From the NCBI GenBank assembly GCA_031213475.1, contig JARUPZ010000034.1:3867114-3931113 (forward strand): DNA of 64,000 bases, written 5' to 3'. The translations under genes were made by a program, and so were the position numbers. This DNA is from Nereocystis luetkeana (Eukaryota > Sar > Phaeophyceae > Laminariales > Laminariaceae). A model generated the notes under the pieces. That model did not search any database. It was not told the DNA's origin and saw nothing but the letters and a program-made list of their open reading frames with translations. Positions within the stretch are counted from its first letter, which is position 1. Each line of letters opens with the position of its first letter. Of this stretch, positions 641 through 64,000 are shown in pieces.

Positions 641-826
641 TACTTCCTAACCCGCCGTTCTGAAGTGCTTGTGCGGGATCTGTGCAACAACGGAGCCAGT
701 CCAGGAAACATGTCATAGATCTTTGCAGGGTGTATATACGGCTCCCAGTCGTCGACGCGAGAGCTGGATCATACATACCTGGTATATGAGAAACGTTTTT
801 ATCTGCTCTGAAACATTTATGTACAG

Positions 827-935
827 TATTACGGGGGACCATAGTTAATAGGACCTGTGGTGTACATAAAAAACTATATATTTTACCATTTTTACCAACA
901 ATATTTGGTCCTATTAACTATGGTCCCCCGTAATA
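827..935. mobile_element. MITE, TTACGGGGG family, copy 1
   Basis: 109 bp including flanking TA on both sides. The ends are perfect inverted repeats starting TTACGGGGGACCATAG, and the arms extend through TTAATAGGACC. The core carries ATAAAAA...ATATTTTACC. No coding capacity. The flanking TA pairs and an empty site at another copy support Tc1/mariner-type TA target duplication. Confidence 0.92.
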
Positions 936-952
936 GATCACGACTCGACCTA

Positions 953-1237
953 CGGTATGTGCAAGAGCGTCCTGCATTCAACTTTGTGCAAGATGCGGGT
1001 CTCATTGGTGAAGGCAGGTCTTTCGGCCGCCCGGCGTTTTTTTTTGGAACAACGCCACCAAAACACGTGGCGGAGCCGCGTGACTGCCCCCCAGAGGGTT
1101 AGGGTTAAGGTTAGGAAAAGGGTTAGTGCTAGGGTGAGGCCTGGGGTTGGGTTGTTCTGGGCCGACGGGCAAGGTTGAAATTGACGACCCACGTCCCGCA
1201 CAAAGTTTTGTGCAGGACGCTCCTGCACATAGCGGGA
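953..1237. mobile_element. TIR element with telomere-like core
   Basis: About 45 bp at 955-1003 (TATGTGCAAGAGCGTCCTGC...) recur inverted at 1190-1235, making a ~280 bp element with imperfect terminal inverted repeats. Its middle (1094-1160) holds GGTTAGGGTTAAGG-like telomeric repeats. No ORF inside looks real. Family unknown. Confidence 0.65.
1094..1160 (+). repeat. Interstitial telomere-like TTAGGG tract
   Basis: Degenerate GGTTAGGGTTAAGGTTAGG sequence, too degraded to be an active telomere. Similar short tracts lie at 24628-24670, 28027-28043, 56128-56175 and 63202-63216. Confidence 0.6.
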
Positions 1238-1700
1238 GCCGTAGATGATGGATGTGGGAACCGATGATCAGTCCGAGGTGCGAAACCAACCATGGTTCTT
1301 GTTGCGGGTTCGTTAGAGTCATGGCGTGTTGTAGGTATGTATGTAGAAATAGTGGTTTGGATTTGAGTCGTTTATTCCGGACAGACGTCATTTTCATGCA
1401 CGAAACGATACGCAAAATAAAACTGTACCCTTTGTTTTTTTCCGGACAAAAACCGCACCAGGTGTAGTCTTATTGAAAGCGGTACTTTTTTTTCTTTTTT
1501 TACGGACGGGCGGGGTACGGACGACGGATAAAAAAGAAGGGACAAGGAAAAATATATGCCGTTCTTTGGAGACCCTAAGTTGGCACCTACTGGGAATATT
1601 GATAATATTTCGTACATGTTTTTTTTCAAGACGTCTGATACGACAGATAGGGGTGGCAGTTTTTCTTGTCCCAAAACTCTTCCGACCGACGGGGGGCGTG
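1238..1700. other. No gene recognised
   Basis: A/T-tract-rich unique sequence with short open frames on both strands. None shows a domain, codon pattern or repeat that I can support. Confidence 0.5.
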
Positions 1701-1704
1701 TTCG

Positions 1705-1796
1705 CCTTACAGGGGCAGCGCCTAAATGTTGCGAGCCTTACAGGGGCAGCGCCTAAATGTTGCGACCCTTACAGGGGCAGCGCCCAAAATGTTGGG
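1705..1796 (+). repeat. 30-31 bp tandem repeat, 3 units
   Basis: CCTTACAGGGGCAGCGCC(T/C)AAA(A)TGTTG units start near 1705, 1736 and 1766 and are almost identical, so the amplification is recent. Confidence 0.9.
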
Positions 1797-2306
1797 AGAT
1801 TCCACACTTGGTTATAGTGTAGGGGCTCCATGCCTCACCCAGAAACTGATCTTGAGGAAACGCTAAAAACAGGGCAAAACCCGATGACTCAACTCCAGAA
1901 GGCTATAGAAGATCTATCACCACTAAATATTGAAATAAAACTCTACCTGTTATTATTTTCCAGCGATATTGGGTTATGGAGCCGGGGTCAGCCAGAAAGA
2001 TTTGCCTTGGAAGGCAAAAAAGTGCTACCCAATGTCACGGCACACGCCTCTGACGGGGTTTCCCTGCTAAGGAACTACCAGTTCCCGATATCGTTGTATT
2101 CTGGAGTCAGGAAAGAGGGGACGCTAGAGGGGTGGACCCCTTTTCGAGGAAAAGCCTCATTTGGTGTACGCCCTGGGAGAGAGTGGCGGGGGTGCCGCGG
2201 TTGATGGCCAGATAGTTAACCCTGGGGTGAGAATCTCCGGCTGGTCGCAGCAGGAGGCCTCCTGTTGACTCAAACTCCTATTAGCCCATTGTATTGTTAA
2301 ATGAAC
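1797..2306. other. No gene recognised
   Basis: A 124-codon open frame (1830-2204, plus) begins MPHPETDLEETLKTGQNPMT and shows no known domain. A related phrase (atgcctcacccagaaactg / atgtctcgcccgaaaactg) occurs at 14270-14295, so the sequence is probably part of a dispersed repeat. Confidence 0.35.
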
Positions 2307-2440
2307 TATTACGGGGGGCCATACCATAATACCTGGTAGTCAATAGGACTAAATATTGTCAGTAAAAATAGCGAAATATACGTTCGAGTATAGGCTTTTG
2401 TGTGTACCGTAGGTCCAACTTAATATGGTCCCCCGTAATA
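2307..2440. mobile_element. MITE, TTACGGGGG family, copy 2
   Basis: Left end TATTACGGGGGGCC and right end GGTCCCCCGTAATA, 134 bp. It is longer than the ~110 bp consensus because the left arm contains an extra ~15 bases that include TACCTGGTA at 2330. Confidence 0.88.
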
Positions 2441-3929: not shown

Positions 3930-4345
3930 GGTTGGACGATCGGTGCGGCAGACATGACCGTCGCTGATGAGCGGTGCAGTCGGCATGGATCGGTGCAGCA
4001 AACCTCGAATCGGATGGATAGTCGGTGCAGTAGACATGGAATCGGTTGGACAATCGGTGCAGTAGACATACACTACCTAGGTTTATAATCTGTGCAGTAC
4101 CTGGTAGACATCTAATCGGTTGGATATTCGGTGGGGGCAGGCGTGTAATAACTTTGTAAAATTCGGTGCAGTAGATATTTAATTGGTTGAACAACAGTCT
4201 GTGCAATATGATCCGCAGTGTGCAAACACCGGCAATATGACGGGTATTTGGTGCCGTCGGCGTGGAATCGGTTGGATATTCGGTACAATTGACGATGCAA
4301 TCGGTTGGATGATCGGTGCAGGGGTGCAGTAGACACCGAACACAC
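3930..4345 (+). repeat. Degenerate ATCGGT(T/G)G minisatellite
   Basis: Irregular tandem units built on GATCGGTGCAGTAGACAT and AATCGGTTGGA repeat about ten times. The open frames here (for example 3859-4407 minus) are by-products of the repeat. Confidence 0.8.
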
Positions 4346-4640: not shown

Positions 4641-5136
4641 TTTACGGGGGGCCATGGTAAATAGGACGAAATATTGTTATTAAGAGTAAAAAACGGGTAA
4701 ATAAATAGGTGTGAAATTTATTTTCCAAGCCTAAAAAAAAAAAAGAATGAACTGCTGAGAGCGCGTATGCGTGGGTAGAGGCGCAATTAATCAGACGCGA
4801 GTCGACGAGGGGAAAAAGGGGTGAAGTCTTCCCGCGATAAGAATGCCTTCGAAGGCGAGAACGAACCGTAGTGTGTGTGGGGGGGGGGCGGTAGGAGAGC
4901 CTGCTGTATGCCCGGATCTGAGTGATGAATTTTGAGGGGAGCCATCGTAGTGAAAGGGACCTACGGTACACATAAAACCTACCAGGTATATATTTCGCTA
5001 GTTTTACGTAGAATATTTGGTCCTATTTACTATAGTACCTGGTAGTAAATAGGACCTAGTGTACACATAAAACCTGCATATTTCGCTGGTTTTACTAAGA
5101 ATATTTTGGTCCTGTTTACTGTGGTCCCCCGTAATA
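4641..5136. mobile_element. Compound or nested MITEs, TTACGGGGG family
   Basis: A left end at 4641 (TTTACGGGGGGCCATGG) runs into a core, then unrelated sequence. A partial copy at ~4931-5035 is joined head to tail with a second at ~5045-5136, which ends GGTCCCCCGTAATA. The junction of the last two is TACCTGGTA (5036), replacing the missing GC-rich tips. TACCAGGTA at 4980 splits the conserved core CCTATATATTTCGC. Confidence 0.75.
4795..4935 (-). repeat. Dispersed CAGATCCGGG family copy
   Basis: On the minus strand this reads CTCAGATCCGGGCATACAGC...CTACGGTTCG...CCTTCGAAGGCATTC...GTCGACTCGCG. The same order of blocks recurs at 13960-14100 (minus), 32045-32165, 61480-61555 and 61690-61850 (plus). 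Some copies have an adjacent T run, suggesting a retroposon. This copy lies inside the compound MITE region. Confidence 0.7.
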
Positions 5137-5735: not shown

Positions 5736-5752
5736 TGGAACGTTTGTAAATC

Positions 5753-5754
<2 letters not shown>

Positions 5755-5797: not shown

Positions 5798-5799
<2 letters not shown>

Positions 5800-6097: not shown

Positions 6098-6215
6098 TAT
6101 TACGGGGGACCATAGTTTAATGGAACCTATGGTATCCATGAAAAAACTACCTGGTGTATATTTAACCATTTTTGCTAACAATAGTGGGTCCTGTTAACTA
6201 TGGTCCCCCGTAATA
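6098..6215. mobile_element. MITE, TTACGGGGG family, copy 4
   Basis: 118 bp between flanking TA dinucleotides with complete inverted ends. The core is interrupted by CCTGGTG where other copies read TATATATTT, a 7 bp insertion of the TACCWGGTA type. Confidence 0.92.
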
Positions 6216-6495: not shown

Positions 6496-6612
6496 TTTTA
6501 CGGGGGAGCATAATTAATAGGACCAAATATTGTTGGTAAAACTTGTTAAAATATGCAGGTTTTTATGTACACCGTAGGTCCTACCAGGTATTAACTATGT
6601 TCCCCCGTAATA
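6496..6612. mobile_element. MITE, TTACGGGGG family, copy 5
   Basis: Complete element in opposite core orientation to copy 1. Within the right arm the consensus GGTCCTATTAACTA reads GGTCCTACCAGGTATTAACT: exactly seven added bases, CCAGG plus a duplicated TA (6582-6590). Confidence 0.9.
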
Positions 6613-9947: not shown

Positions 9948-10066
9948 TATTACGGGGGACCATAGTTAACAGGACCTATTGGTACACATAAAAACCTACC
10001 AGTGGTATGTATTTAACCATTTTTACTAACAATATTTGGTCCTGTTAGCTATGCCCCCCCGTAATA
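9948..10066. mobile_element. MITE, TTACGGGGG family, copy 6
   Basis: 119 bp with intact left end. The core contains TACCAGTGGTA where other copies have TATA, and the terminal TA at 10065 is itself followed by CCTGGTA. So two footprint-like motifs sit in and at the edge of one element. Confidence 0.92.
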
Positions 10067-10126
10067 CCTGGTATTAATTAGTTGTTGTCCAATTTGCCCC
10101 CCGAAAGTGAGGAGATGCCCGAAGGG

Positions 10127-10735
10127 TTTCCGTTTCTTGCTGTTGCGGACACTTTTTTCGCGACGACTGAATTGTGCATGGAAACGACACTGCTTTAGAT
10201 TGACGAACTTTTTTTTTCTCGTCACGGGAGAGCACAGCAGTAATCGGGACCCGTTTTTTTGCTGTTGTGGACACTTTTTTCGCGACGACTAAATTGTGCA
10301 TGGAAACGACACTGCTTTAGGTTGACGAACTTTTTTTTTCTCGTCACGGGAGAGCACAGCAGTAATCAGGACCCGTTTTTTTGCTGTTGTGGACACTTTT
10401 TTCGCGACGACTAAATTGTGCATGGAAACGACACTGCTTTAGATTGACTAACTTTTTTTTTCTCGTCACGGGAGAGCACAGCAGTAATCAGGACCCGTTT
10501 TTTTGCTGTTGTGGACACTTTTTTTGTGAAGACTAAATTGTGCATTGGAAGCGGCAATGCTTTAGATTAACTTTTTGTTTCGTCACGGGAGAGCACAGCA
10601 GTAATCAAGACCCGTTTTAGGCTGTGTCGACACTTTTTTGCGACGACTATATTGTGCATTAAAGCGACAATGCTTTATGTTAACCCTTTGTTTCGTTACG
10701 GGAGAGCATACCAGGTAGTAATCAGCACCCATCAT
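10127..10735 (+). repeat. 122 bp tandem array, 5 units
   Basis: GCTGTTG(T/C)GGACACTTTTTT starts at 10139, 10261, 10383 and 10505 (exact 122 bp steps) and, degenerate, at 10621. Units carry CACGGGAGAGCACAGCAGTA; the fifth reads GAGAGCATACCAGGTAGTAA instead. Homogeneity of units 1-4 points to recent amplification. No gene. Confidence 0.95.
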
Positions 10736-10776: not shown

Positions 10777-10885
10777 TATTGCGGGGGACCATAGTAAATA
10801 GGACCTAATATTGTGACTAAAAATAGCGAAATATATAGGTTTTTGTGTGCATCGTAGGTCCTATTTCATACGGTCCCCCGCAATA
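10777..10885. mobile_element. MITE, family variant with TTGCGGGGG ends
   Basis: 109 bp, both ends changed symmetrically to TATTGCGGGGGACC and GGTCCCCCGCAATA. The matched change on both ends suggests a mobilised subfamily rather than independent decay. Confidence 0.9.
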
Positions 10886-13830: not shown

Positions 13831-13959
13831 TGGTTTCATCTTGGGCGCATGCTACGGCAGCACGGCTGTTTCTTTGAAGAGCTTTGTCCCTCGCCAAAAA
13901 AGCGACTCGTTTCAGAAACATTAAAAAAGGTGTACCTGGTACCCGATTAGACAACCCCC

Positions 13960-14389: not shown

Positions 14390-14600
14390 AATGAGGTATG
14401 CCTTATTGAGTAATTCTTCAGTTGAGGCATGCCTTATATGTCATGCGCCTTATTTGGTAGTTCCTCGGCTGAGGCATGCCTTATAGGGCAATTCCTCAGC
14501 TGAGGCATGCTTTATATGACATGATGAAGGGGGTTGTTCCTCAGGTGGAGCATGCCATATGAGGCATGCCTTACAAGGTACCAGGTATGCCTTATTGGGT
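14390..14600 (+). repeat. ~30-60 bp repeat with GAGGCATGCCTTAT
   Basis: GAGG(C/T)ATGCCTTA(T) recurs about six times with TTCCTCAG(C/G)TGAGGC between copies, giving a hairpin-prone ladder. One copy contains TACCAGGTA (14579). Confidence 0.85.
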
Positions 14601-15439
14601 AGCTCATTAGTTTACAAGAAGCCCCAATCATGGCACAACCAATTAGGGTAGGCTGTACAGTGCTACCCGCCTCTGTCATCATCGTGGAATGCGCCCCCCC
14701 CTCCATGGCCTACGTAATGCATCGAAATGTTTTGCAAAACCTCATACGTGGTACACCCATTAAGCTTGCGGACCTGAGGTGGCAACTACCAGGTACTATA
14801 TCAAGCTTGAGGAACTGAGTACCGGTATCAATCAATACTTTATAGTAGGTTTAATTATCAAACACCGTGTTATACATGCAACGCGGAACAAACACGTCCG
14901 ATGAGCGTGTCTGACGTATCACGCAGCTTGCAGCTGAGTTTCAACCACTCAATCGGCTGTACTCACAGCTAGCTGTGACGCACTCGTAACAATTTTACAA
15001 AAACGGAAATGATATTCCAACGGTAAAATAAGGCATGCCTTTTTGGCTATCAAATATGTACTCAGTGCCCTTAATGAGCCGATCAGTCTGAAATGTTTTG
15101 CCCGGAAAGTTTTACCACTTTTGTTTTTTTATTTTAGTCTTCACTTTCGCTTTCCAGCGTAACTCGTAGGAGGTTCTACCCTCAGCGGTTTTCTTCTGGG
15201 CAAGCCGTGGTCACAGGTGTCGTCCCTTCTCCCCCCCGGTACGTGCTTTCAGTTTTTGTCGCGCATAGAGTTCAGCATTCCCACTGCTTGTCGATTTTCC
15301 TCGAATGTTAGTCTTTTTTTTTAGAGCACTACACATTGTCGGATGGCAAGCATAATACAAAAAATACTCGTACGTAGTGTATCTAACTCACGCTTTCGCG
15401 CTTTCCGCTAGTATTTTTTTTTGCAAGAAAAAGTCCTTA

Positions 15440-16746: not shown

Positions 16747-16855
16747 TAATACGGGGGACCATAGTTAATAGGACCTATGGTATACATAAAAACCTATATA
16801 TTTAACCATTTTTACTAACAATATTTGGTCCTATTAACTATGGTCCCCCGTAATA
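16747..16855. mobile_element. MITE, TTACGGGGG family, inserted after the duplication
   Basis: Flanks read GACGTA ... TAGTAATATTAATAA; duplicon B at 47845-47870 has CGTCGTAATATTAATATT with no element. This is a filled/empty pair and supports a TA target. The left tip is ATACGGGGG instead of TTACGGGGG. Confidence 0.92.
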
Positions 16856-17405: not shown

Positions 17406-18474
17406 AGTGTATTTACCACACGTATCGCAAAGAGTACTGGCGAATCATGACACGTTGGGTCGGACCACGCTAAAATGATTACGTACCCGTACATAAGTTT
17501 GCCTCTTACAGTCTCGATTGCTGATCACAATCAACCCCCCCCGCCTTACCGGACTCCCCGCGGAGAGCCGCAGCAATCAATCACCAACACGTAGATGATA
17601 AACGCCCAATCAATCGCGTGAGAGAAATCGCAAACACCATATTGGCGCGTTCGCTCGCAAAAAAATGCTACCATACCTGGTACGAAGCAATTGATGATGT
17701 GTTTCTCTATCAATCCCCACGCATCATGAATACACCAAGTTGTACAGCACCACGCGGAATCCCCCAAACGAAAAAAAGGTGGCGTAGGTGGGGGGGGGGG
17801 GCGTGCCGTGACAACAAACAAAAAATCGGAAAGGAAATAAAAACAATGGACAGTAATTTGGAAACAAATCGGACATCACTTGGAATCAAAATCGGGAACG
17901 AAGAGCAAAAAAAAACGAGGAGCAAAGGAATCGGAGACATCCTGCCGTGAGGAACACAGACTTAAACTGTACTACAGAAGCAAACACGGCGAAATTTCCG
18001 GCAGAATGAGCTTGGCTTCTTCCTATCACATACCGGTACACTCAGCCATGATAGACGTCGACCCATTGGACGACAGGTGTTGAATGGTTGACGCTAGCCC
18101 ACCCTATGGGCGATGGATGATACATGGTTGACATCGAACCCAAAACCCTAGAAAATGAGGGGGCGGCATCGCCCCGCATCACTTAATTTACACCCTACGT
18201 ATAGATACCTCGCGAAGGGGTGTATCTCTTACTGTACACACGTACAACACGTCGAAGGAAGAAGGGAAGGCAGGGAGCAAGGAAGAGCGTCAATCGCGTC
18301 TCTTCCCCCCTCCCTACGTAGACCACATCCAAAATCGCGCACAATTAAACACGACCGCACACACAGCCAAGGAAACCAACGAACTAGTTTCATACGGAGA
18401 GCATAAAAAAGTTCCTTGTAAGTGATACCGCTGCAAATCCGTTTCACGCGGAAAAAAACAAACTCACAGTGCGT

Positions 18475-19260: not shown

Positions 19261-19439
19261 GAGAAAAATGAAAACGGTCTGGCTACTGTTAGTTATTCCA
19301 TTACAATGTACCTGGTAACAGCTTTTGCTTGACTTCTTAAGAGGGGTGATTTCTTGACGAGGTGAATCCCTCAGCGGAATTGCGTCAAATAATGTACCGC
19401 GGAACCGATTCGAACCAAATATAGTCAATCCGACCTGAA

Positions 19440-23260: not shown

Positions 23261-24462
23261 AATGATCGGGGGAGTTATTTCCCTTCGCTGCGGTCTACCG
23301 ATATAGATCTACAGAGAGATTCGTCCTACCAACTTGGCGTTGATAATGTTGAAACAAAAAAACCGGCAGGTCAACAGAAGAACGAATATGGGGAAAGGGG
23401 AGTTAAGGTGGAACTATCAGAGCAGTATTCCCACCATGCTTCCGTCTATATGTCTACTGAGAGTGTCGTCCTACTATTAATAACACGGCGATGCCAAAAA
23501 CGTAAAACGTAAAAACAGCTGTTTCGACAGAACACGGAAACTTAGGATAAAACGTCATCGACTCTGTTTTCTCCTCCTTTGCCTGTGTCTATATACTTCG
23601 AGTTTTCTATCAAGTGGGATATCGGACAAACACGAAGTACCAAGTACCTGGTATGGAATTTGACATATAAAGCGGTCATTTGTCATAGGAATCAATTCGG
23701 GGGGGCGCGGGGGGGGGGGGGTGGGGGGTGGCGGAGTTTACAGAGCAGTTTGTTTCTGTTTGGTTTGCGTCTATGCATCAGCCTACCCAGAGTTGTCGTC
23801 CTACAAACGAAGGCGTGCAATGGGTGAAACCTGAAACGGCAATTCTGCGGACAATAACAAAATATGGCAACAAGGGGGTTAAGGTTCGGTTAACAGAGTG
23901 GTGTTTTATCCCCCTTGCTTCCGTCTATGTATCTACGGAGAGCGTTGAGCGCGGTACTAACGCGTCATCAAAACGTTGATACTTAAAACGACAACATCTG
24001 ACAGCGGAAAAAAAACGAGTTTTTTAGCTCTCGTTCCCGCGTCTGTATATCTACTCAAGGGCCATTGTTATCGACTCATGTGTTGTCATAAATAGTACGA
24101 TGTTCCTGGGTTTTTAGCCTAGAAGAGGAGTGCCAAACTTTTCTGAACTTCCAGTCTCTGTTCAAATTTCAAATTTCAGAAATTGGTGTTAATTTTTCGT
24201 TCGTTTTTACCAAAAGAGACGAAACCAGGGGGAAAAAATACTGGTGGTTGGTAAGATTGGCTCTAAGAGTGTCGCTACACGAAATCACGACTAAAGGGCT
24301 AAAAGGACGATTTGACATGGGAATAAACACAGGGGGGGCGATAATTCAAGATCAACAGAGCTGTTTATTCTCTTTGTCTCTGTCTACGCATCTGCTGAGA
24401 GTGTCGTTGGACAAGCGTGGAACCGAAACTTGAATCGATCCTTCGATCGAGGAATCAATCCG

Positions 24463-32299: not shown

Positions 32300-32414
32300 T
32301 ATTACGGGGGGGCATAGTTAACAGGACCAGATATTGTTAGTAAAAATGGTTAAACATATACTGGTAGGTTTTTATGTGTACCATGGGTCCTGTTAACTAT
32401 GGTCCCCCGTAATA
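32300..32414. mobile_element. MITE, TTACGGGGG family, with visible empty site
   Basis: The filled site ends ...CCCCCGTAA|TA|GCGGGTTAATAG; the sister copy at 31547 reads GAT|TA|GCGGGTTAATGG. This defines the element as TTACGGGGG...CCCCCGTAA with TA duplicated. The core has TATACTGGTAGG where others have TATATAGG. Confidence 0.95.
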
Positions 32415-32690: not shown

Positions 32691-32974
32691 AAATTAAAAA
32701 ACGTGACGGCAATACGAGTACAGCAGCACGTTCATAGTCGTACGTCTTTGACTCTGTATAAATATACCAGGTATGTATTATCCTTCTCGAGGGATGTGAG
32801 CGAAGCCTTCGCTTCCGATTTCATCTTGAATATAGTCTGGGACTCCAGACGCCTTCGCTTCCCTGCCTTCGTGCTAGGTATTTTGACCGCTTTCCTCGTG
32901 GGTGGCGCTCGCCGGGCTCCGACGGGTGTTCTCCCGTGCGCGCGTCTCGGAGTCTCGCGCCACCGACGGGCGCG

Positions 32975-34045: not shown

Positions 34046-34413
34046 TTTTCTCTTCCTCTTCCTTTTTTGATTGATACCCTGGTACCTGGTAAGCCGTACT
34101 CAAGGAGCCGTGTGGCGTGGTTGGAAGACGAACCTGCTCTGCTCGGCTCGTATTGTCTGACGCCGAGGGGCTGGGCATAGTTGACGAACGCAGGGCGGAG
34201 ACGGCAGTCTGGGTAGCAAGGTACCAGGCGGATTAGCAGGGAGAACCTGGCTATACTACTCGTACCACAAGCTGCTGCCGCCACCTGGAAGGTGCTTTGG
34301 GCTTTGGTCTGCCTGTTATTTCCCCTTTGTTATTTTCCCTTGTTACTTTCTCCTTGGTTCTTTGTCTTACTCTGTTCACAAGCAGTGGTGTTTTTTGTTA
34401 TTTCTTCTTTTTT

Positions 34414-36472: not shown

Positions 36473-36812
36473 TCAGCTCGTTCTGTATTGTCTGCTACAT
36501 CTATCTATCTCCTACAAGGGGGGTACAACACCTTTTTTCTTTTTTTCTTCCTTTTTTCGTTTCCCTTGTTTTCTCCATTTCATAGAATGTGTATGTCGTG
36601 CTTGTCGTATCCAGTACGATGACATGACGTTGCATTCTCTATTCTGCTTACTGCATAACAATGTACTAGGTACCTGGTATACTACTGCTGTAGTATCTCT
36701 GTGGCGTAGTTCTTTTACCACACACAGAACTTGTATCTGTCTGGGATTAAAGAATCGGCACGGACGACATTGGTTGTGCTGGATGTCGACAAGTAGAAAG
36801 AGTGACACACAC
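36473..36812 (+). repeat. Foldback family, full unit
   Basis: CAGCTCGTTCT, TATGTCGTGCTTGTCGTATCC, GTAGTATCTCTGTGGCGTAG, GATTAAAGAATCGGCACGGA, GGATGTCGACAAGTAGAAAG and GACACACACAGCAG. Diverged from 34414 and split by TACCTGGTA at 36671. Confidence 0.82.
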
Positions 36813-36814
36813 AG

Positions 36815-37650
36815 CAGTAAATATAAAATATGTACCGGCGTACCAGCTACCTGGTATCCCTGGTCCAGCAGTACGCGAACGAGTATGCGGGTATGATATT
36901 TGTATTTTTTTCTGGCTTACCGGACAGAAATCATCCCACGCTTCCACTCCAAAATCAAAAGCCCGCGGAGACGCCGGCGTGCTTGACCGCCAGATCGGGG
37001 TCCTTGGGGCCTCGCAGTCTGCCTGTCGCTGTTCGAGTTGTTGATGTTGGTGTTGGCACCGCTCCCTGTAGTACCTGTCGCTGCTGTGATGACACACGAC
37101 ACACGAGACACACGACACACAGGAAACGCAGTTCCGTACAGATACGCCGCAGAATTGAAAATACTTTTGAACCGAATGTATGAAATTAAACATGCGCGGA
37201 TATCATTTTCCATTCTTTCGGCGGATTCAACAGCTGAAAAATATGAACCCAGGTGTAAAAGGCGTTGGTGTTTTTTTCTTGTATGAAAACGTCGACGCGA
37301 GACAGAACAAACTGCAACACCATCATGTTCACACCACTGCCTCCATCAGAACGCCAGACTACCGCGTTCGTTTGCCTCAGCAGCGGTCTCCGAGCTGACT
37401 GCCCTTCCCACACTATTCCTTGTCGTAGGGCCACACTCTACTTTACTTTACTGCCGCTCTGTCGACTAATTAATTGCAGCAGTTCAACAGGAGTGATGCC
37501 ATTGATGAGGTGCTACCATGTCTTTACCTGCCTACAAGTATTCAAAAGTACAATAAGATACCAGTACCAGGTACCCGGTACACATCACTATTAATACCAC
37601 CATCACTACTCGTATGATGATGAGACGACACACGCCGCGGTCGCTCGCCT
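36815..37650. other. No gene recognised
   Basis: Several mutually overlapping frames on both strands. An ACACGACACACGAGACAC microsatellite lies at 37090-37120. Confidence 0.45.
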
Positions 37651-39770: not shown

Positions 39771-40567
39771 ACTTTTTATCCCTGGGCAGGTCTGCTTACT
39801 AAGCCGGTACTCATTGGGAATCACATGCGTTGCTTGCTTAGAGATAGAAGAGCAGCTTTATTCCTTTCGTGCACGACGGAGACTGAGACCACGCTCGTGC
39901 CTCTCTGGAAAACCCCTGGTTTTCCACCTAAGATACGCCTTCCAAGTACTACAAAATACGATCCCAGTGCCAGAACCCAGGTAATTACCGGGTTTTCAAC
40001 CTCATACAAAGCAGGATCGTAACACTGAAACCTGTTCACCGCCGCAAGGAAAAATGTGTACTAAAATCACGTGGGTTGTTTTCAAGAGGTAACTCGCCTA
40101 AAATAATGCATGTAAACGTACGTACGAGGGTACTTGGCTGGGTTGTCATAACGTAGATGAGTAAATGACCTATTGCGTCGTTTCGTCGTTACACTATACC
40201 AGGTATGTATTTTATCAAGACACAACTTGCAGCGTACAGCCTAACGCCATGAAGAAATCTACGTTTCTCAAGGGGGGGCTGTGAGAACGAACAACCAAAG
40301 ATATCGGGAGACAGCATTTTCACCCCTTGACAGACAGCAACTTTTGTCTTGACAAGCCTTGACTGACACCCAACTACTAGGTTTTAGTGTGAAACACTCG
40401 ACCCTACCCCCTTGACAACGCAGGATTTGCCTTGCTTGATGTGTCTCCTGACATCTTTGCGAACAAGCGCTGTGTGGTGGCCACGGACTGCGGGGAATCT
40501 ACAAAAAATGTATCCCCTTTCCCCCAATTTTGGGAGTTCCAGACGAAGGCGTTATTTTTTTATGCCT

Positions 40568-53115: not shown

Positions 53116-54884
53116 TTTCCATAGACAGCATTGGGTGTGCCATACCACACACGCACATTTCGTGATACGATCAACGCCCCTTTCGGAGTTAAGGTTCTCC
53201 ACTCCAAGCAAATGATCTACGCAACTCGACCACGCCAGCCATGGGTACAGCCCAAAAACAAAACGGCACCCTGCTTGTCTAGCTCACGCAATGATTGGTG
53301 CGTTTTACAGCGTTGTTGATAACCGACGCCAGCTCAGCCTATACAAACCTGGTATGTAATATGGGGGGGGTTAAGGTTAACATAGACTTATTATTTTTCT
53401 ATATGTATTCCGTCTCTCCTACCGGGGATATATCTACCAGGAGATTCGTCCTACAAAAACTGTGTAACAATGTTTAAGCAGTAAACTACCTGGTATAGCT
53501 TCACAGAGGAAGAAACATGGGGGGAGGGGGTTAAGGCTAACTGAGCCCACGTTTTGTTCCTCCCTTCGGGCTATATATTTGCTTAGAGTGTCGTTCGACA
53601 AAAACGATGTGAACTAGTTTAGACTGCAAGTTGTCAGTTTTACAGGGAAACAAGCAAACGGAGGGGTGGGGTAAAGTTAACTGTTTTTCCTTGCTTCCTT
53701 GCATCCGTCTTGACGTCTAGTGATAAGTAAGTCTTTTGAACATGCGTTAAAACGACATAGGTAGGAAAAACAATGAACACAGATGAAAATGTGCGGAGGG
53801 GGGGGGGATAGGGCTGTTTTTTATCCTTCCGTTCCTCCGTCTAAACGTACATCTAGGCCGAGAGTTTTATCCTACAAACGTGGTGTTAATTGTTGAAAGT
53901 CGAAAGTGACGGTTTTACAGAGAGAAGAACTAAGCCGGCGGGCAAAGTGGCTGAGACTAGGTTGACAGAGCAGTGTTACCCCCCTTGCTTCCGTTTACAA
54001 ACAGGGCGTGAAAAATATCAAATTGAGAGCCGATGATTTGACTCAGGAAAAAAACATTGAGGGGGGGGGGGGGGTTGACAGAGTTACATGTGTCTTCCTT
54101 TCTTCCGTCTCTATACCTACTGAGAATAATGTCCTGAAATCACGGTATCAAAAAGTTGAACTTGAACGACAATTCGACAGACTGGAAGAAATATGGGGGG
54201 GGGGGGGCTACGGTTATCGGAGTAGATATTCCCTTGCTTCCGTATATGTATCTACGGAGATATTCGCCCTGCCAGCACGGTGTTGATAACGATAAAACAC
54301 AAAAAGTATAGCTCAACAGAGGTACGGATACGGCGGGAGGGGAGTCAAGGTTAGGTTACCGGAGAAGTTTCTTCACCCTGCTGCCGTCGACTTGGGTGTT
54401 TTTTCTACTGAGAGAGTGCCGTCCTGCTAACGCGGCGTTGTAAAAAAAGTTTCGAGATCTAAAACAATTTTGCTTAACGGAAGAAGACATTATTGTCACA
54501 GTTTTTTTTACATTCGTTGTCCGTGTCTGAAAAAAATTTGAAGCATCTATCAATACTACGAGTGTTTCTCAAATACACCCGAAGCACCAGGCATGGCATC
54601 AACCCCCTTCGGAACCCCGAGATAGTGACCAGAACGACGAAAACAAATGGCGTTATACATCAGCCGTCTACGAGCAACGTGTCGCCCCAAGCAGTACGGG
54701 CAGCGAGAGGCTCATGTTGCGCCCCCCGTGGCGCACGACTCCTTGCACCGACATTTGTCACTCGGACACCATGCTGTACAATATCATCCCCCAATCATCA
54801 CGCAGTGACCGTTGCTGAAATCGTCACTTTTTATTCGTCAGCCATTGTTTCCCCTCTGAAGTCCCAAGAGGGTTAACGTGAAGG

Positions 54885-55245: not shown

Positions 55246-56127
55246 TCCTTACAACACTTAAGTAATACCTTCACATTAGCACGTCAAGCGGATACTTGAT
55301 AGAGGAATGCACCCGGGGGGGGCGGGTCGTCCTACAAAACGAAGGCTTGTGAACGATAACGCTTGACACGGCGATTTCACAGAGAGGGAGGAATATATAT
55401 GGAGGCTCGAGCGTTAGAGTTGGACGAACAGAACGGTTTTACCCCCCTTCGCTACCGCCTGTAAATCTACTGAGAGTGTCGAGCGTCGTTTTCAAAACGT
55501 GGCATTAAAACGTTGATACTTGAAACCATAATGTTTTCAGAGGAAGAAGATTTTTTTTTTTTCTCTCGTTTCCGTGTCTGTATACCAGGTACCAGGTACG
55601 AAATATCTACTGAAGCGCCATTATTATCGAAGAGCTCTTTTATATTTTTCCTGATTTTCCCCTTCTTGTTTCCCGAAATATACCCTGGTAACATTTTTGC
55701 TCTCTGTCCGATTTCTTGAACTCGGAAACAATCCCTGTTTGCCCTTCTTTATTTTTCGAAGAAAGAAGAGGAAACCAGGAAACAACTCCGTGATAAGTTG
55801 ACCCTACGTATATACGAGTGTCGTTCTATGAAAACGTCATCAAAAAGTCAAAGCTTAATAACCACCGTTTGGCAGGGGAATAAAAACAGGGGAGGCACGG
55901 ATTAAGGTTCACCGAGCTGCTTATTTCTTCTTGGTTTCCGTCTACCAAGTGTGTATCTACTCAAAGTGTCACCGGACAACAAGGCAAGAAAAATTGAAAC
56001 GATTATTCGACAGAGGGAGGGGGGGAGGGCCCAACTAACAGAGCTCATTTTTCAAGTGGCCGACTGCGTATGTCCGCTAAGTGTTTCGTTCTACAAGTAT
56101 GGACATGGAAATCTCACACACAGGGGA

Positions 56128-56175
56128 AATGTGTAGGGTTGTAGGGGTGGGGGAGGGGCTAAGGTTAAGGTTTAG
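56128..56175 (+). repeat. Telomere-like tract
   Basis: GTAGGGTTGTAGGGGTGG...GGCTAAGGTTAAGGTTTAG, orthologous to 24628-24672. Confidence 0.55.
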
Positions 56176-56394
56176 AGTCGCGTGAATTCAATCATTTTGC
56201 CGAAACCGGACGAAATCGTACACCCTTCCCGAAAGTATGCATCAAAAACACAGAATACAATTATTGACATATACGTATCATACTTAACAAAGCGGTTTTG
56301 TTTTTGCCACGGACAGGCATTCACGGCAGCGCATGTTTCCTCCCAATGTAGAACGTTTTTTAATCCAACTTTGATTCTCCCAAGTCCTGGAAAA

Positions 56395-56565
56395 TATGCC
56401 TGTTGCTGTGCTGTTGCTATTACGAATATCTGCTGTTACACAACATGCGTTGCCGAGAAGGAATAACGAAACTAAGGCATATCTCAGAATTATATGGTTT
56501 CCTTCCAAAATGGTTGACTTGAACCTGTCATGGACTAGAGAATGCTGGTGAGCCCTCGTGAGAAA
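56395..56565 (-). other. Conserved block downstream of cyclin exon B
   Basis: The partner of 24890-25060. In B the minus-strand frame reads ILEGNHIILRYALVSLFLLG then NACCVTADI. This could be a small exon of the same gene or a conserved non-coding element. Confidence 0.4.
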
Positions 56566-56806
56566 CAACATCCAAGAACAAAAGTAGCAACAGCACCAGT
56601 AGCAAGGGCAGTGGAGAGCTTGAGCTTCATTTTTACCATTCCGCCGAAGGATAAATAAAAAAAGCAACCAAAGCAACAGCCTCAAAAACAGACTGACAAC
56701 AACAAAAAGACGGCTGCTCAAACACCAACAAAGAACAACTACGTACGTGCAATAAAGAGGGCCAACACCAAAATAGCAACAGCAACAACAACACAATGTC
56801 TCTCAC

Positions 56807-58249
56807 CCTTGTTCGCGCTTCGGATATCCTCTGCTGCCGGCCCCTGCTCGAGCTCGGCGGTGGTGTCAGATCTTCTGTATCATACTCGGTGCTGTCTCCA
56901 CGGTTGAACCTTTCATTGACCCAGACTGCGGATCCACCGCCGCCCCCACCTCCACCCCCCCCACCACAACCCCTACCTCCACCTCCACCTCCGCGTTCGT
57001 TGGCGCGACTTGCATCGCTGCCGCCGCCGCCACCGTAGCAGCGGCCTCCCGCAACCCTGCCCTTTCCAGCGCGGGCCGGCTTAGCGGCCGGAGCGCGGCT
57101 CAAAATCCCGGGGTTGTTCTCCCGGAGCACCCGGCAGAGGGGCATGGCGTTGTTGTCCGAAATACCGATTGGGCATCCGGCAGCCCGGCAGACCGTGTCG
57201 GCAGCTTGGGCGCCGTGTTCGCTGTACACCGCAAGCTCGAGAGCCGCAGCGGCCATCTTCGAAGGCGTGGCGACCGCGAGGTACCCGGCCCTCAGCCACC
57301 TCAAGGAGGCTTTCGCCGCGCATTCACCGATGCTAACGGTCTGGTCTTCGAGCAGCGCCCCCTCTGACACAGCGCGGGCGATGAAGTGGAAAAGAAAGGT
57401 AAAAGGTGTCTCCGGGAGAACGGAGAATTGTACGCTGTTGCAGAAACGCCACTCCAGGCGTTCAACGGCTTTTGATACTCGGCTGCATTCGTCCCTTTCC
57501 CATATGCCGCAGGCGTACAGCAGACGGCGCAGGAGGGTCCCCTGCCCAAAGCACTCGTCCAGCTTCAACGCCATGTAAATGCAGACAGCCGGGATAAGGT
57601 TTTCGTCGCATAGGTGTGGAAGCTCTTCGTCTTCGCCGCTACCATCGTGGCCACCACCGCCACTACCACCACCAACAAGACTGCCACCGCCATCACTCCA
57701 ACCAGCCAAACCACCATCATCGGCACCACTTCCACCACCCCAACCCTCCCAACCCCCATCACCGCCAGTAGCATCCCCACTGTCACCACCGTTGCCTCCA
57801 CCACCACCACCACCCCAGACTCTGCCGCCACCACCGCCACCAACACCACCACCATCGCCACCGCTACCACCCCAGCCACCACGACCACCTCTCCCAGCGC
57901 CACCCCGACCGCCACTCTCACCACCACCACCACCGCCCGTCGGGGATACCAAAGCACCGTAGCACCTCCCCACGTTCACGTAGATAGACGTGATCGCATC
58001 CAACGTGGCTTCGTGGGGTATGTAAAACCCTCCTTCCGCGGCCAGCCGGTTCAGGATCCCATCCACCTTCGAGAGTAGCGCTTCCAGCGGTACGGGTGAC
58101 AACACTTGGAACCCCCGCTGAATAACGGGGTAGTCAATTTCTTGCTTCGAAAAAGCGTGCTTCAGCAGAACGTCGACCTCCGGGGTGGCGAGGTTAACCG
58201 TCCCGACTAAGTTCTTAGCGCCAGGGTAGACCTTTTTGTCGAGTGGTTC
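56807..58249 (-). CDS. Cyclin-box protein, copy B (internal exon)
   Basis: 481 codons between CCCTAAG|GAACC (58250) and AGG|GTGAGA (56806), both phase 0 and aligned to copy A. The exon begins EPLDKKVYPGAKNLVGTVNL. Seen: YVNVGRCYGALVSP, a ~105-residue Gly/Asp-rich insertion (longer than in A), LIPAVCVYMALKLDECFGQG, AVERLEWRFCNSVQFSVLPE, TPFTFLFHFIARAVSEGALL, ALRWLRAGYL, MAAAALELAVYSEHGAQAAD, VCRAAGCPIGIS and a Gly-rich tail. Cyclin residues including Lys/Asp-Glu of ALKLDE are kept, and differences from A are mostly conservative or confined to Gly tracts, which suggests both copies stayed under selection. Role as in copy A: a divergent cyclin, CDK partner unknown. The Leu/Phe-rich frame past 56806 (to 56633) is read-through into intron. 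No start ATG in this block. Confidence 0.75.
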
Positions 58250-58284
58250 CTTAGGGAATAGGGGGGCGGGACGGGGTACATGCA

Positions 58285-58720
58285 GAAAGGGAGAGAGAGA
58301 TAGAGAGAGAGCTAAGAGAGAGATGGACAGAAAGAGTCAGAGACATGGACAGAAAGAGACTGAGAGATAGATGTATAGATACATAGAAAGGAACATAGAC
58401 ATAAATATATTAATAGATAGATGGATAGCTATCTAGAGATATCAAGATACATCTACACATATCTAGATAGATAGACAGAGAGATATGTCAAGATATATCT
58501 AGATAGGTAGATAAAGAGATATATCAAGATACATCTAGATAGATAGAAACAGTACGGTAGATACAAGAGATACCATATACATATCCATAGGCAGGTAGGT
58601 AGATAGATAGATAGAAATATAGATAGCTAGACACACAGGTAAATATGTGTAGATGGATAGATAGACCGATATATAGAACAGATGAATACGAAGTACATCC
58701 GAATATATAGAGAGAGATGG
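58285..58720. repeat. GATA/GAGA microsatellite region
   Basis: Over 400 bases of GAGAGA, AGATAGAT, ATATCTAGATAG and GATACAT units just upstream of cyclin exon B. Absent from A. Confidence 0.93.
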
Positions 58721-58899
58721 GGAGAGCCGAATTTCGTTCGATATTTTACGATGATGATGATCGAAGCGCAAACAGTTAATACGTTTGAAAGAACAAACAC
58801 ATTAACCGGCCGCCCCGGCGGATCAACGGTATCTTCGTGGCATCAGTAGTTTTGTCACCTTGAGGCTTGAAGTCAAACTGCCGATGCAAATAGTTTCCG

Positions 58900-59410
58900 G
58901 GATGATCAAATTGAAGCAGTCACGGCTCTGCTATTGACGTAGGCACGACTCTGTGTTTGAAGTAGGACACGAATCTACGGTTGAATTATACACGATAATA
59001 TGGTTGAAGAAGACACGAATGGTTGAAGTAAGTAGAGCACGACTCTATAGTTGAAATATCCACGGCTCCACGGCTGAAGTAAACAAGATTGTATGTCGAA
59101 GTAGACACGACCCTGCGCTCGAAGTAGGCACGACCATGCAGCAGTTGAAGTAGACGTAACTCTACGGTTGAGGTAGAGTCGAAGTAGTCACGACGCTATG
59201 GTTGCAGTAGACACGAGTGTAGGTCCGAAGTAGACACGAGTGTATGGTTGAAATATGCATCAGTCTATAGTTTGAAGTATGCACGACTCTGTTGTTAACG
59301 TAGATACGACTCTATGGCTGAGCACGTAGACACGAGTCTATTGTTGACCCAATCGCGAGCCTATTGGTCAAGTAGAAACGGCTTTATAGTCACAATGGTT
59401 GACACAACTC
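58900..59410 (+). repeat. GAAGTAGACACGA minisatellite
   Basis: ~35 bp units (G/A)TTGAAGTAGACACGA(C/G)T(C/G)TA, the B counterpart of 28270-28660. Confidence 0.87.
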
Positions 59411-59649
59411 TTATGCTTGAAGTACACAAACCCAGCGATAACCCCAAAAATACAACTCGAATATAAACATAGGCGAGTGCGCAGGAATTAACCTCAAGCC
59501 CGTAAGACCTGCACGGCATAGTTTTTGGGCACAAAATCCTCAGACTTAATGAGAGATCTTGTTTGCAGTAGAAAAGAGGGTCCAATTTTGTACCGCCAAC
59601 ACGAGCCGAAAACGAAACGCAAGGATCGTTGGAGGCTAGAAGACTCGCA

Positions 59650-59790
59650 CGACAAAACGGACGTCAAGGACATTTGGGAACACGTCGTAGATGCCAAGGA
59701 CCGTTGGGGACACACAGACGTCAAGGACCGTTGGGGGCACACAGACGTCAGGGACCATTGGAAACACACTAACGTAGAGGTTCAGAAAGC
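59650..59790 (+). repeat. 27 bp KDRW-type minisatellite
   Basis: GACGTCAAGGACCGTTGGGG units in frame as KDRWGHTDV. Partner of 28950-29085. Confidence 0.82.
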
Positions 59791-60379
59791 CAGGACAACG
59801 GCAGCACTCCATGGAGTTCAATATCGTATTGTGTGTCGTATTGGTGATCATGTGGCAGCAGGCTAAAACTCTACAGATCCATCGGCAGGACGATAATTTA
59901 TTGAAAGGACGACAGCCCAAAACAATCGCATGTGTTCTGACCTCCGACAACTCATACAGTAGTGCTCTGTTCGTTGTTGTATCTATAGTGTACGTTGTTG
60001 CTTCGTGGGACGTGCGGTATGTATGCTCTCATCTCGTTTAGCTCTAAAGATGGTGGGGTTGGCGTTGGTCGGGTCTGACGTCCGATGGGCGGATGGGTCA
60101 GTGTTCTGTACGCTATAAAACGGTGGACCTACGCAAGTACGCCGTAAAACGGTACAAATCTGTAGGGTGTGCGTCGTCAGATCACCGCACAGCAGTGGTG
60201 CCTCGGCGCCTAGGCCAACGAGCGTTGCCTGTATAAAGTGCTCTCTGCTTCGGCATAGCCCTGCAAAACGGCAAGTGGCGAAGATAACCCACGTTATACC
60301 GTTTTTTGGCCAACCTCCAAGCTTTTCATAGACCGTGTTGAAAAATATCGCTGCTATCGTAGGAGATCAAGTATGAAAG

Positions 60380-61470
60380 AGTAAGATTATCCAGTATCCA
60401 TATCGGGATTCAGTTTTTTGCACCAGTGAATGATGACTATATTCCTGGTGACTACCTGGTATTATGAATACCAGGGACGGTAGTTACCACGATTCAGAGC
60501 TGTGACGTACCGGTAATAATCCCTTGTAGCTGAAAATCATGGCCGCTCGCCATTACCGCTACCGGAAATATCGGCAAGGCTTTTAAATTCGGGGAATGCA
60601 CCCTTATCCGCCCGGTCAAGAATAATGACACAATCCCTACCGGACACGCCTCTGTTGTGTGTCACCTGTGCGCGCTACGTAGTCTGGCGACGTAGAGAGT
60701 AGAGAGCTAGAGCTACGAAGAGAAAAAAAAAAAGCAGGGATTTCCTGTGTATATGTACGCGGTTTCACCAAGGTTTTTTCAACAAACAAATTATCGCGAA
60801 AAATATTACGAAACCTCATCCGAGTACAGGGTTCAATACACCGGTGATTACCTCGTACCGGTAGTCACCATCCCTAGTGAATACCGCTGTACCCGATATC
60901 GTATATAATAAATGTTGTTCTTGCACCATCCCACAATGTGTAGAATGAGCTTCAGCACGTTGTTGTCGAAGTATAACAGGCACACAGCAATACAGGGCAG
61001 TGGTAGATGTTTTGTCTTTATAGACGAAATTCATTTTTTTTTGCGGAACACATATATTTTCTCTTTGGGCCGACTTGTCTTCTCTCGCGCTCTCGGCCGC
61101 GTGGCACGATTTATCTTCCCATTTATTTTATTCGCCCCTGGTCATACGACTACGCCCATGCATGATATCGATTATCTTATCGAGTACACCCCCCCCCCCC
61201 CCCCTGTTTTCTCTCTCCCTTCTACTAAGGGTCATTCTTATCGGAGAGCTTTTTCCCATAATTTCCATGTTTTTTTTGCGCAATTTTTTTATCTTCCAGA
61301 TTTTCCTGATTTCGTTTTTCCAAATATGTGAAATTTAACAAACCTTGTTTTTTTTTCCTTCAGGAGGATTTTACGACTACAGAACGCCTACGTACCTTGA
61401 TACGTATCTCCAATTATTTCCAATCTTTGGAAGTTCTAGGAAAAAAGCTCTCCGATAAGAACGAGCCCAA
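60380..61470. other. No gene recognised
   Basis: GGTGACTACCTGGTATTATG near 60446 is partly mirrored at 60835-60890 (GATTACCTCGTACCGGTAGTCACC), suggesting an imperfect inverted pair ~400 bp apart. An inverted poly-C/GTACTC repeat copy lies at 61135-61205. Confidence 0.45.
61135..61205 (-). repeat. Poly-G/GTACTC repeat, minus copy
   Basis: GTCATACGACTACGCCCATG, ATCGAGTACACCC and a C run: the inverted complement of the 22945 type. Confidence 0.75.
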
Positions 61471-61475
61471 GAGTC

Positions 61476-61555
61476 GTGACTCAGATCCGGGACCACATAG
61501 CAAGCTCACCCCCCTCGCTCCCCACTACGGTTCGTGCCTTCATTTGGAACACTAG
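61476..61555 (+). repeat. CAGATCCGGG family copy
   Basis: ACTCAGATCCGGGACCACATA, CACTACGGTTCGTGCCTTC. The first of two copies within 400 bp. Confidence 0.75.
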
Positions 61556-61689
61556 GCCCCACACCCTCGGCAGCGCACGCTTTGCCTTGCTTGACATGTC
61601 TCCTGACGTCTTCGGCTGGTACTTTTTCACGCTGGTATATATTCATCCCCCTTCCCATTGATTATATTTCGCCCTTTTTTTCTGCCCCT

Positions 61690-61850
61690 CCTATTAATAG
61701 TCGCAACTCATATCCGGGGTCACATAGCAGGCTCACCCCCCCCCCCCCCCCCCCCTCCCCTCTCCACTACGGTTCTTGCCTTGGAAGGCATTTTTATCGC
61801 GGGTAGTTCTTCAGCCCTGTGGTCCCTCGTCGATTCACGTCGATACTGGC
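61690..61850 (+). repeat. CAGATCCGGG family copy, fuller
   Basis: AACTCATATCCGGGGTCACA, a C20 run, CTACGGTTCTTGCCTTGGAAGG, TTTTATCGCGGGTAG and CTCGTCGATTCACG. Inverted homologue of 4795-4935. Confidence 0.78.
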
Positions 61851-62281
61851 ACCGGAAACACTTTGATTTGGCGTGGTTAGACACCAATTTCGTCATGTAC
61901 ATTGTCAGATGCGATATTACTAGACGGCGAGGTGTTGGATGCATATAGCCTAAGTAGTGTTGCGCGTGCGTTCTTGGAGGCATGCCGTTCATAATTTCCG
62001 AGCAAGTGAGCATCGTGGGCTTCGATGTGTTGGAACTTGTTGCAGTGTTGTGCGTGCGCTCTTGGAGACATGTCGTTGCTGCTTCCGAGCAATCGATGAG
62101 GTATGTGGAGTGTGGAATTGTAGTTGGCAAATGGAATAGTAATACTATATATTGGGGATTTGTTGGAGCGTGGGCTTTTGGCGGCTTCGACACACAACGT
62201 GTTACATTGTTGATACGGGTCCATGAAAAGATATCCCGAGACCCCCCTGTTTACCCATTTTCGAGGGCCAGACAAGAGGGG

Positions 62282-62445
62282 GGGGGGGGACTCATTTGTT
62301 ACTCGCCTTAGTCCTTTCACCATTGACCACGCATCCCTCTCAAGGCGTCAGTGGGGGGAGAGGGGGGCGTACTCATTTGTTGCTTGCCTTAGACATATGG
62401 CCATTGACCACGCACCCCTTTCGAGATATCAAGGGGGGGGGGGGT
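62282..62445 (+). repeat. Poly-G/GTACTC repeat, two tandem copies
   Basis: Two head-to-tail units: G run, (A/G)(C/G).(G)ACTCATTTGTT(A/G)CT(C/T)GCC, CCATTGACCACGCA(T/C)CCC. A further G12 tract follows at 62431. Confidence 0.85.
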
Positions 62446-62710
62446 CACTAAAACCAAGCGAGATGTAAATATGAAAAAAAGTCGCTTTCCGTAATTTTGT
62501 CCTTAAATCTCATCAAACTGTTTTTTTTTCTTCATTTTGGCACTGGGAAGGAGTGTAGGTCGTTTTCTCTTTTCGGTCGAGCCCCCAACTACTATTGGTT
62601 TTTCGGCGAGGTGTCGTTGTGAAGGCTCGTTGGGTTCTTTGATGCCAAGTCTATGTACGGTGTTACGCGATCTCTCGAGGTTTACCAACCAAGCCGATGA
62701 ATTACCGTAT

Positions 62711-62819
62711 GATTACGGGGGACCATAGTTAATAGGACCTATGGTCCACATAAAAATCTATATATTTAACCATTAGTACTAACAATATTTAATTCTATTA
62801 ACTACCGTCCCCCGTAATA
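62711..62819. mobile_element. MITE, TTACGGGGG family
   Basis: 109 bp, GATTACGGGGGACC ... GTCCCCCGTAATA. Right arm slightly decayed (ATTCTATTAACTACC). Confidence 0.92.
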
Positions 62820-63012
62820 AAGGTAACCACAACTTGCCACAACTGACCCCGTACGGCGCTATAAGCTACCTGGTACCAGCCACTATCATCGCTTGTCAAG
62901 GTTCACTCGCTCCAGGGTTCTGCCGTGTCAACTTTCTCTGCAGTTTTCGGTGTTATTTTGTTCAGATTGTTTGAACCGCGCCGGTGAACTACCGGCTTAA
63001 TGAAAAAAACGT

Positions 63013-63123
63013 CATCATGGGGGACCATAGTAAATAGGACCTACGGCACACACACAAAAACTTATATATGTCGCTATTTTTACGAACACTATTTGGTCCT
63101 ACTTACTATGGCCCCCCGCAATA
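63013..63123. mobile_element. MITE, TTACGGGGG family, decayed tip
   Basis: CATCATGGGGGACCATAGTA ... CTATGGCCCCCCGCAATA. The left tip is mutated and the right tip is of the CGCAATA subtype. Confidence 0.88.
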
Positions 63124-63201
63124 GTATGCCTTTTTACGTAGTGATAGTGTTTTCGGTGTTTTCGACCGCCATGCTAGCGGTTGTGTTAAATTCTGAGGCG
63201 G

Positions 63202-63216
63202 TAACCCTAACCCTAA
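63202..63216 (-). repeat. Short telomere-like CCCTAACCCTAA
   Basis: AACCCTAACCCTAAA only; too short to mean a chromosome end. Confidence 0.45.
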
Positions 63217-63219
63217 AAG

Positions 63220-64000
63220 TACGTTACATAGTATTATATGTCCACTACGGCCAAAAAGGGACGGTCTTGGATTCGCGTCACTGAGCGGGTGGCGTCATCC
63301 GCATAACCTTGTACGAGCACGTACGTATATTCTGCAGGTGAGATGGAGCGGACCGAGTGGGCTACGTAGTGCGATGGGGCGGCCATGGAGAACGCCAGCA
63401 GGACGGTACACGGAGACCCACGACCGGCGCGCGCCCCACGAGAACAGCAACCATCATTTTTTCCCTCAGTTTTTTACGAGTCCGCGGTATTAATACTGTA
63501 CCTGGTACCTGGTAGTACGTACTGGTACCTGTTATTTATCGGTACGTCACTGGTCTTCGTAGTGAAGGCAAAGTTGTATACCCTTCATGGGAAACGCCCC
63601 CCGGAAAATGATCAGGGGCGTGGTATGACAGCTGTGCTACACCTTGCCAAGACAGTCCGGGAAAACGTGGCGATCATTGACATTCGCAAGGGGGATTTTG
63701 GTTGTATTGCTCTTTTTTCACTGCATGCCCGCCAGTCGTGACTCTGACAGCACCCCAGACAGCAGGTGTGTCCCTCTCGACTACCACCGTGTGTTTCGTG
63801 AGGTGCAGGCAGCACTCCAGACAGTAACCGCCGTAGTCAGTCGTAGCCACGAGTTGGGTAGTTGTGGGAACGGGGGAGCCCTATATGCTGTATAATAGTG
63901 GTTGAGTGTATACCCGCGGCCATGTTCAGTTTGCACATTGAGCAGAGGGAATGTTGAACCCTATGCGCGACATAAAGGCACGTACCGGGGGGGGGAAGGG
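63220..64000. other. No gene recognised
   Basis: Several overlapping frames on both strands (for example 63385-63741 plus, with a hydrophobic LVPGSTYWYLLFIGTSLVFV stretch partly made by TACCTGGTA repeats at 63499-63514). No family recognised. The window ends in a G run. Confidence 0.4.

Follow-up and report, generated by a model that had tools for sequence, protein, structure and literature searches.

Scattered through a 64,000-nt stretch of the genome of the brown alga Nereocystis luetkeana (GCA_031213475.1, contig JARUPZ010000034.1:3,867,114-3,931,113; G000:C34:3867114-3931113 among our loci), hereafter the window, is the short palindrome TACCWGGTA, which is very probably the excision footprint of a TA-targeting cut-and-paste element with CCAGG ends. 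Under the mechanism we propose, an element with both ends reading TA-CCAGG... would insert at a TA, duplicating it, and would later be excised by a cut that is exact at its 3' ends and falls some five bases within its 5' ends, leaving each flank with TA and the 3' overhang CCAGG. Joined in register (register 0), the two overhangs would pair at four of five bases as CC(A.A)GG, and resolution of the A.A mismatch to A or T would produce TACCAGGTA or TACCTGGTA. Shifted by one base, they would meet with two pairs and two mismatches, giving C[C/T][A/G]G in register -1 and CC[A/C][G/T]GG in register +1. New copies would land in old scars, sites with another TA seven bases away being preferred, and this would build tandem scars.

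The motif is far more abundant than base composition predicts. The window holds 27 exact copies, compared with a mean of 0.44 and a maximum of 4 in 100 dinucleotide shuffles, and once short-period words are set aside TACCWGGTA is its most enriched 9-mer (27 vs 0.57 and 0.61 under second- and fourth-order Markov models). Across the 465-Mb assembly (1,987 contigs) we counted 182,395 copies, or one per 2.55 kb, and only 1,744 of the reversed pattern. Rates for competing words were taken from a 314-kb sample consisting of the window and 25 ten-kb stretches (L009-L028, L045-L049); L001-L008 and the small loci L029-L044, having been chosen by a motif, do not count towards rates. TACCWGGTA occurs 116 times in this sample, and the runner-up among W-centred palindromes of the form TA-xyWy'x'-TA is GGWCC with 21, which in the window lies mostly inside copies of a miniature inverted-repeat transposable element (MITE). 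No other palindromic two-base flank accompanies CCWGG more than six times. Half sites, TACCWGG lacking the second TA, show no clear excess in the window (18 on both strands vs about 16 at equal base use). In the 314-kb sample the sequence 3' of TACCWGG hardly recurs, tandem units and copies in the same repeats aside: the commonest 8-mers that follow it are TACCTGGT (14) and TACCAGGT (8), both of which are tandems, with both strands read, and the next reaches 4.

Comparison of filled and empty copies of one MITE shows that the motif is an addition at TA. This short inverted-repeat element, MITE-A, has ends TTACGGGGGACCATAG and TA flanks and is about 109 bp long when empty. Copies lie in the window at 827-935, 2307-2440, 6098-6215, 6496-6612, 9948-10066, 10777-10885, 16747-16855, 32300-32414, 62710-62819 and 63012-63123, and the 314-kb sample contains 41 merged matches, unevenly distributed, which extrapolate to tens of thousands genome-wide. 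By our reading, 10 of the 41 have at least one CC-type addition at a TA, one of these having CC alone. Additions of 7 bp are present in the window at 4980, 6148 and 6582, of 9 bp at 9997 and of 6 bp at 32359 (plus strand here and below, unless noted). At 4980-4988, in the copy within 4933-5136, TACCAGGTA splits AACC-TA-TATATTT exactly at what we term the hot TA. The same TA carries TACCTGG, with the second TA reading TG, at 6148-6156 in the copy 6098-6215; the variant TACCAGTGGTA at 9997-10007 in the copy 9948-10066; and the variant TACCAGTA at 32359-32366, minus strand, in the copy 32300-32414. A second spot, GGTCC-TA-TTAAC, is split by TACCAGGTA at 6582-6590 in the copy 6496-6612 and is filled in L049 as well. 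Further copies of TACCTGGTA sit at 2330-2338 in the copy 2307-2440, as a piece of a longer complex addition, at 5036-5044 where two fused MITE-A copies join, and at 10065-10073 on the flanking TA of the copy 9948-10066. Genome-wide, with exact flanks required, the hot TA is empty 10,618 times (control 1) and filled with CCWGG 1,367 times (control 0). TA is present on both sides of the footprints, and as in TA insertion by Tc1/mariner elements the additions sit at a TA whose empty form is known, although what is seen there is the footprint and not the element.

A preliminary description of the window had counted 27 exact copies where about 0.5 were expected, had taken 4980 and 6582 to be exact 7-bp additions at TA in MITE copies, and had placed 10065 on the target TA of a MITE. 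All 27 copies were recovered and the shuffles agree with the expectation; both additions hold on alignment, 7-bp indels at TA appear across aligned copies in the window and at the hot TA genome-wide, and 10065 falls on the right-end TA of its MITE-A copy. Its inference of a very active cut-and-paste element is thus supported by the additions at TA and by an enrichment that extends across the whole genome.

Minor products at the hot TA are informative about the overhang. Besides CCWGG, exact flanks enclose C-N-N-G 253 times and CC-N-N-GG 157 times (controls 0 and 0), and we counted their compositions by hand among the rows listed, which come from the first contigs only. In the 4-nt class 94 of 100 listed take a form predicted for register -1 (CCGG 41, CCAG 32, CTGG 20, CTAG 1; other 6), and in the 6-nt class 89 of 100 take a form predicted for register +1 (CCAGGG 54, CCCTGG 20, CCATGG 15, CCCGGG 0; other 11), compared with the quarter expected by chance if the two free positions held random letters. 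The products are also polar: among 100 of 107 listed, CCAG occurs 96 times and CCTG 4 times, and in the 314-kb sample the counts are 32 vs 8 for CCAG and CCTG, 10 vs 1 for CCAGGG and CCTGGG, and 45 vs 16 for CCA and CCT. This strong polarity indicates that the retained end is CCAGG, not CCTGG. Spectrum and polarity together match CCAGG ends as the source of the footprints, with the ends themselves deduced from footprints only.

The most serious alternative also invokes excision, but with an overhang of four (CCAG) or three (CCA) bases, CCWGG then arising by out-of-register joining and gap filling. A CCAG overhang can indeed make CCWGG (C-G, A.A, G-C) and, in register, CCAG, CTGG and CCGG, while CCATGG, 15 of the 100 listed 6-nt rows, can be read as CCA+TGG. 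With four bases, however, the 6-nt products would have to join with zero base pairs, yet they number 157 against 253 of the 4-nt class; with three, the dominant product would depend on a single A.A mismatch. Because the 6-nt class is not rare, we prefer a five-base overhang over four and regard the shorter ones as unlikely. The spectrum points to TA-CCAGG ends and a 5-nt stagger as the probable features of the element to be sought, with 4 nt as a possibility. The 5-nt stagger proposed in the preliminary description is strengthened by the minor footprints, and the spectrum narrows its CC(A/T)GG-like ends to CCAGG, at the expense of CCTGG.

The excised element also appears to have chosen its TAs. 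For this test we removed the 7 bp, merged exact tandems and dropped sites near locus ends, which kept 84 of 85 merged sites in a 264-kb set and gave 104 sites in the 314-kb sample. In the larger sample 56 of 208 flanks have a TA at +-7, where 15.3 would be expected (maximum of 10,000 resamplings, 30); after CCWGG-like spacers are dropped the counts are 44 vs 11.2 (maximum of 2,000, 25). Smaller excesses occur at distance 2 (35 vs 16.5) and distance 8 (27 vs 14.7). In the 264-kb set, 42 of 84 sites have a TA at seven on either side, compared with 13.7% of all TAs. Since the footprint is itself TA-N5-TA and a second TA at seven is favoured, each scar becomes a favoured target. Exact tandem scars number 15,917 genome-wide (control 2), and the window contains degenerate and triple tandems as well.

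These features also bear on explanations that do without excision. A cut-and-ligate step might leave a short palindrome, so the motif could in principle be a library, ligation or assembly artefact; but the sites favour TAs with a TA at +-7, differ among the copies of a single MITE, occur in mutated and nested forms and are found on contigs of several megabases, which makes this very improbable. We give slightly less credence still to selection maintaining or spreading the motif as a functional palindromic binding site. The W-centred palindrome has the usual shape of a dimeric site, but filled and empty MITE TAs differ by 6, 7, 8 or 9 bp in a repair-like spectrum, and exact empty sites, tandem units, telomeric filler (described below) and flanks with little in common speak against it. 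Equally remote is a repeat origin, in which duplication or slippage would have multiplied the 9-mer as a short repeat, or the 9-mer would belong to a longer repeat family: among the first 59 tandems the centres are AA in 23, TT in 17, AT in 14 and TA in 5, so that the 40 with like centres may include some slippage copies, but 19 have unlike centres, flanks hardly recur outside tandems and MITE copies, and single sites stand at unrelated TAs.

Several observations nevertheless weigh against excision from CCAGG ends in the simple form given above. Like centres are in excess in tandems, as just noted; of the first 100 centres at the hot TA, 67 are A and 33 are T; CCAGGG and CCCTGG differ in number; and CTAG (1) and CCCGGG (0) are scarcer than free mismatch choice predicts. 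The near absence of these last two implies that the two mismatches are not resolved freely, and the simple model would have to be supplemented by biased mismatch repair or some slippage.

The parent element itself did not appear, which counts against the same model. Among 526 facing TACCWGG/CCWGGTA pairs scored in 322 kb (the window, L009-L028 and L045-L052), none marks an element with inverted ends, so the elements with TA-CCWGG ends that the preliminary description suggested looking for were not found in the sequence searched; it had itself remarked that no intact parent was visible in the window, and we found none there. The only perfect facing pair (L023 2141-6126) is enclosed by a larger inverted repeat that extends beyond it, the next best (window 55583-63514) consists of two tandem footprints, and a repeated half site, TACCAGGCGGATTAGCAGG, is internal to another repeat; all three were rejected. 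Nor did reading by eye reveal an unexplained recurrent element end among the junctions at which the hot word AAAACCTACCWGG is followed by something other than TA, of which 153 of 341 were listed (100 of 288 where the next base is not T, and all 53 where T is followed by a base other than A). The recurrent continuations there are MITE-A, a second repeat (...GTAGTTTGGTGTCAGTC...), a sequence listed twice (C15, C1259) and a related pair (L039/L040) whose left flanks are alike too. The second repeat has the empty form AAAACCTA-GTAGTT(T/G)GGTGTCAGTCAAG near 40386 of the window, minus strand; several genome sites carry CC-type additions at its same TA and form an independent filled/empty set.

At the protein level, the Pfam profile DDE_3 gave no match in the genome and neither did Transposase_1, whose control was also silent. 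DDE_1 (pogo group) gave 28 genome matches, genes or fragments, several with open frames; the three of these loci that we inspected (L050, L051, L052) have no TA-CCAGG inverted ends in 2.4-3.4 kb, stretches that may stop short of the element ends. Five DDE_1 places have the same score and contain three TAG codons apiece, and four of the five are on high-numbered contigs. Ten large open reading frames (ORFs) of the window gave no Pfam match, and the MITE word had no match in viral contigs, a set from which records of this genome may have been excluded. The parent may be rare or extinct, may lie on sequence outside that read, or may have a transposase that the profiles miss.

Some odd junctions look like products of break repair. 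Of 14 examined, L042 and L044 are clearly MITE-A, L043 is uncertain and the others are not MITE-A by eye. In L044 (G000:C1:21794762-21795196), TACCAGGCATAT at the MITE-A hot TA runs straight into telomeric CCCTAA repeats, as though telomeric sequence had been used to heal a break; L042 is a MITE-A copy with longer filler, which is likewise expected of break repair.

Excision of this kind has relatives among known systems. Sleeping Beauty leaves TAC(A/T)GTA. In the mariner element Mos1 one inverted repeat begins CCAGG and the usual footprint retains three bases, while the Tc1-like Minos leaves the four-base footprint CGAG, in which both central bases are unpaired. The products predicted here for registers -1 and +1 would share the two-pairs-two-mismatches form of that Minos footprint, but Minos has another end sequence and an overhang one base shorter than the one proposed here. 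Tc1/mariner elements insert at TA, and their 5' cleavage falls two to three bases within the element (PMC2170065, PMC4505599, PMC7827188). Sleeping Beauty likewise targets TA, and its 3' overhangs are end-joined to leave a footprint that repeats the overhang, as is proposed here (PMC7827188), although that overhang has three bases rather than the roughly five (CCAGG) that we infer from footprints alone. Mos1 shares the TA target but leaves three-base overhangs, unlike the five proposed here (PMC4505599). Grass Stowaway/Osmar elements also leave TA beside short end fragments, with several footprints per site and insertion beside an older footprint, but their fragments of 1-4 bp come from few loci, whereas here about 182,000 near-uniform footprints occur in one genome (PMC1925063). 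ISY100, a bacterial IS630 relative of Tc1/mariner, has a TA target, an exact 3' cut and a 5' cut inside the element, but its stagger is two bases and its predicted junction TATATA (PMC2170065). Judged by its footprints, the process would work like Tc1/mariner excision, on an extreme scale; with neither an element nor a transposase linked to the footprints, membership in Tc1/mariner is not established.

The remaining footprints of the window add to the catalogue. Exact single copies of TACCTGGTA lie at 776-784, 4098-4106, 13933-13941, 17674-17682, 19309-19317, 53487-53495, 60453-60461 and 62867-62875, and exact single copies of TACCAGGTA at 14787-14795, 32765-32773 and 40197-40205. Exact tandems are TACCAGGTACCAGGTA at 55583-55598 and TACCTGGTACCTGGTA at 63499-63514, the latter followed by TACTGGTACCTGTTA from 63520. 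Other tandems are TACAAGG-TACCAGGTA, whose first unit has one mismatch (14572-14587), TACCAAG-TACCTGGTA (23638-23653), TACCCTGG-TACCTGGTA with a 6-nt and a 5-nt unit (34075-34091), the degenerate TACTAGG-TATCAGGTA (35536-35551), TACTAGG-TACCTGGTA (36664-36679) and TACCAGC-TACCTGGTA (36841-36856); a triple, TACCAG-TACCAGG-TACCCGGTA, stands at 37559-37580. At 10133-10550 a 174-nt stretch is present in three copies at 122-bp spacing, and one of the diverged units that by eye follow it on the 3' side holds the footprint TACCAGGTA at 10709-10717.

Other TA-N-TA words are in excess in the 264-kb sample: CTCG/CGAG, the letters of the Minos footprint (43 vs 10.7), CAG/CTG (92 vs 39.8) and CTGCTG/CAGCAG (25 vs 1.3). 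These may be footprints of further elements. Two gene-like ORF pairs recur about 31 kb apart (19829-21523/50781-52619 and 25154-26608/56633-58105), with 73-81% DNA identity across stretches of 265-300 bp, suggestive of an ancient segmental duplication. By eye the second pair looks cyclin-like, and it has no Pfam match. Protein P0001, from a 5,664-base ENA contig, is identical to the window ORF 56633-58105, so another record of the species may exist.

A transposon survey of Ectocarpus reports almost 12,000 Mariner-Tc1 copies, and the words footprint and excision are absent from its main text (PMC12477816). A literature search for the motif in three spellings found no paper containing any of them, and none of the titles and abstracts listed reports such a number of footprints. 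We consider it about evenly balanced whether the fuller picture also holds, namely a TA-targeting element with a five-base stagger, longer than the two or three bases that the cited papers give for Tc1/mariner elements, that left some 180,000 serial scars, is now rare or gone, and whose scars breed scars. So many scars suggest that the element hopped for an exceptionally long time or with exceptional intensity. Most descriptions of excision footprints draw on a handful of loci; with about 180,000 in one genome, transposon-break repair can be studied across a whole population of events, in its register, in the strand that wins each mismatch and in its rates of trimming and filling, and past hops can be counted without a visible element. 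The target rule would feed on its own scars, and TA-CCAGG ends are a concrete prediction for the parent.

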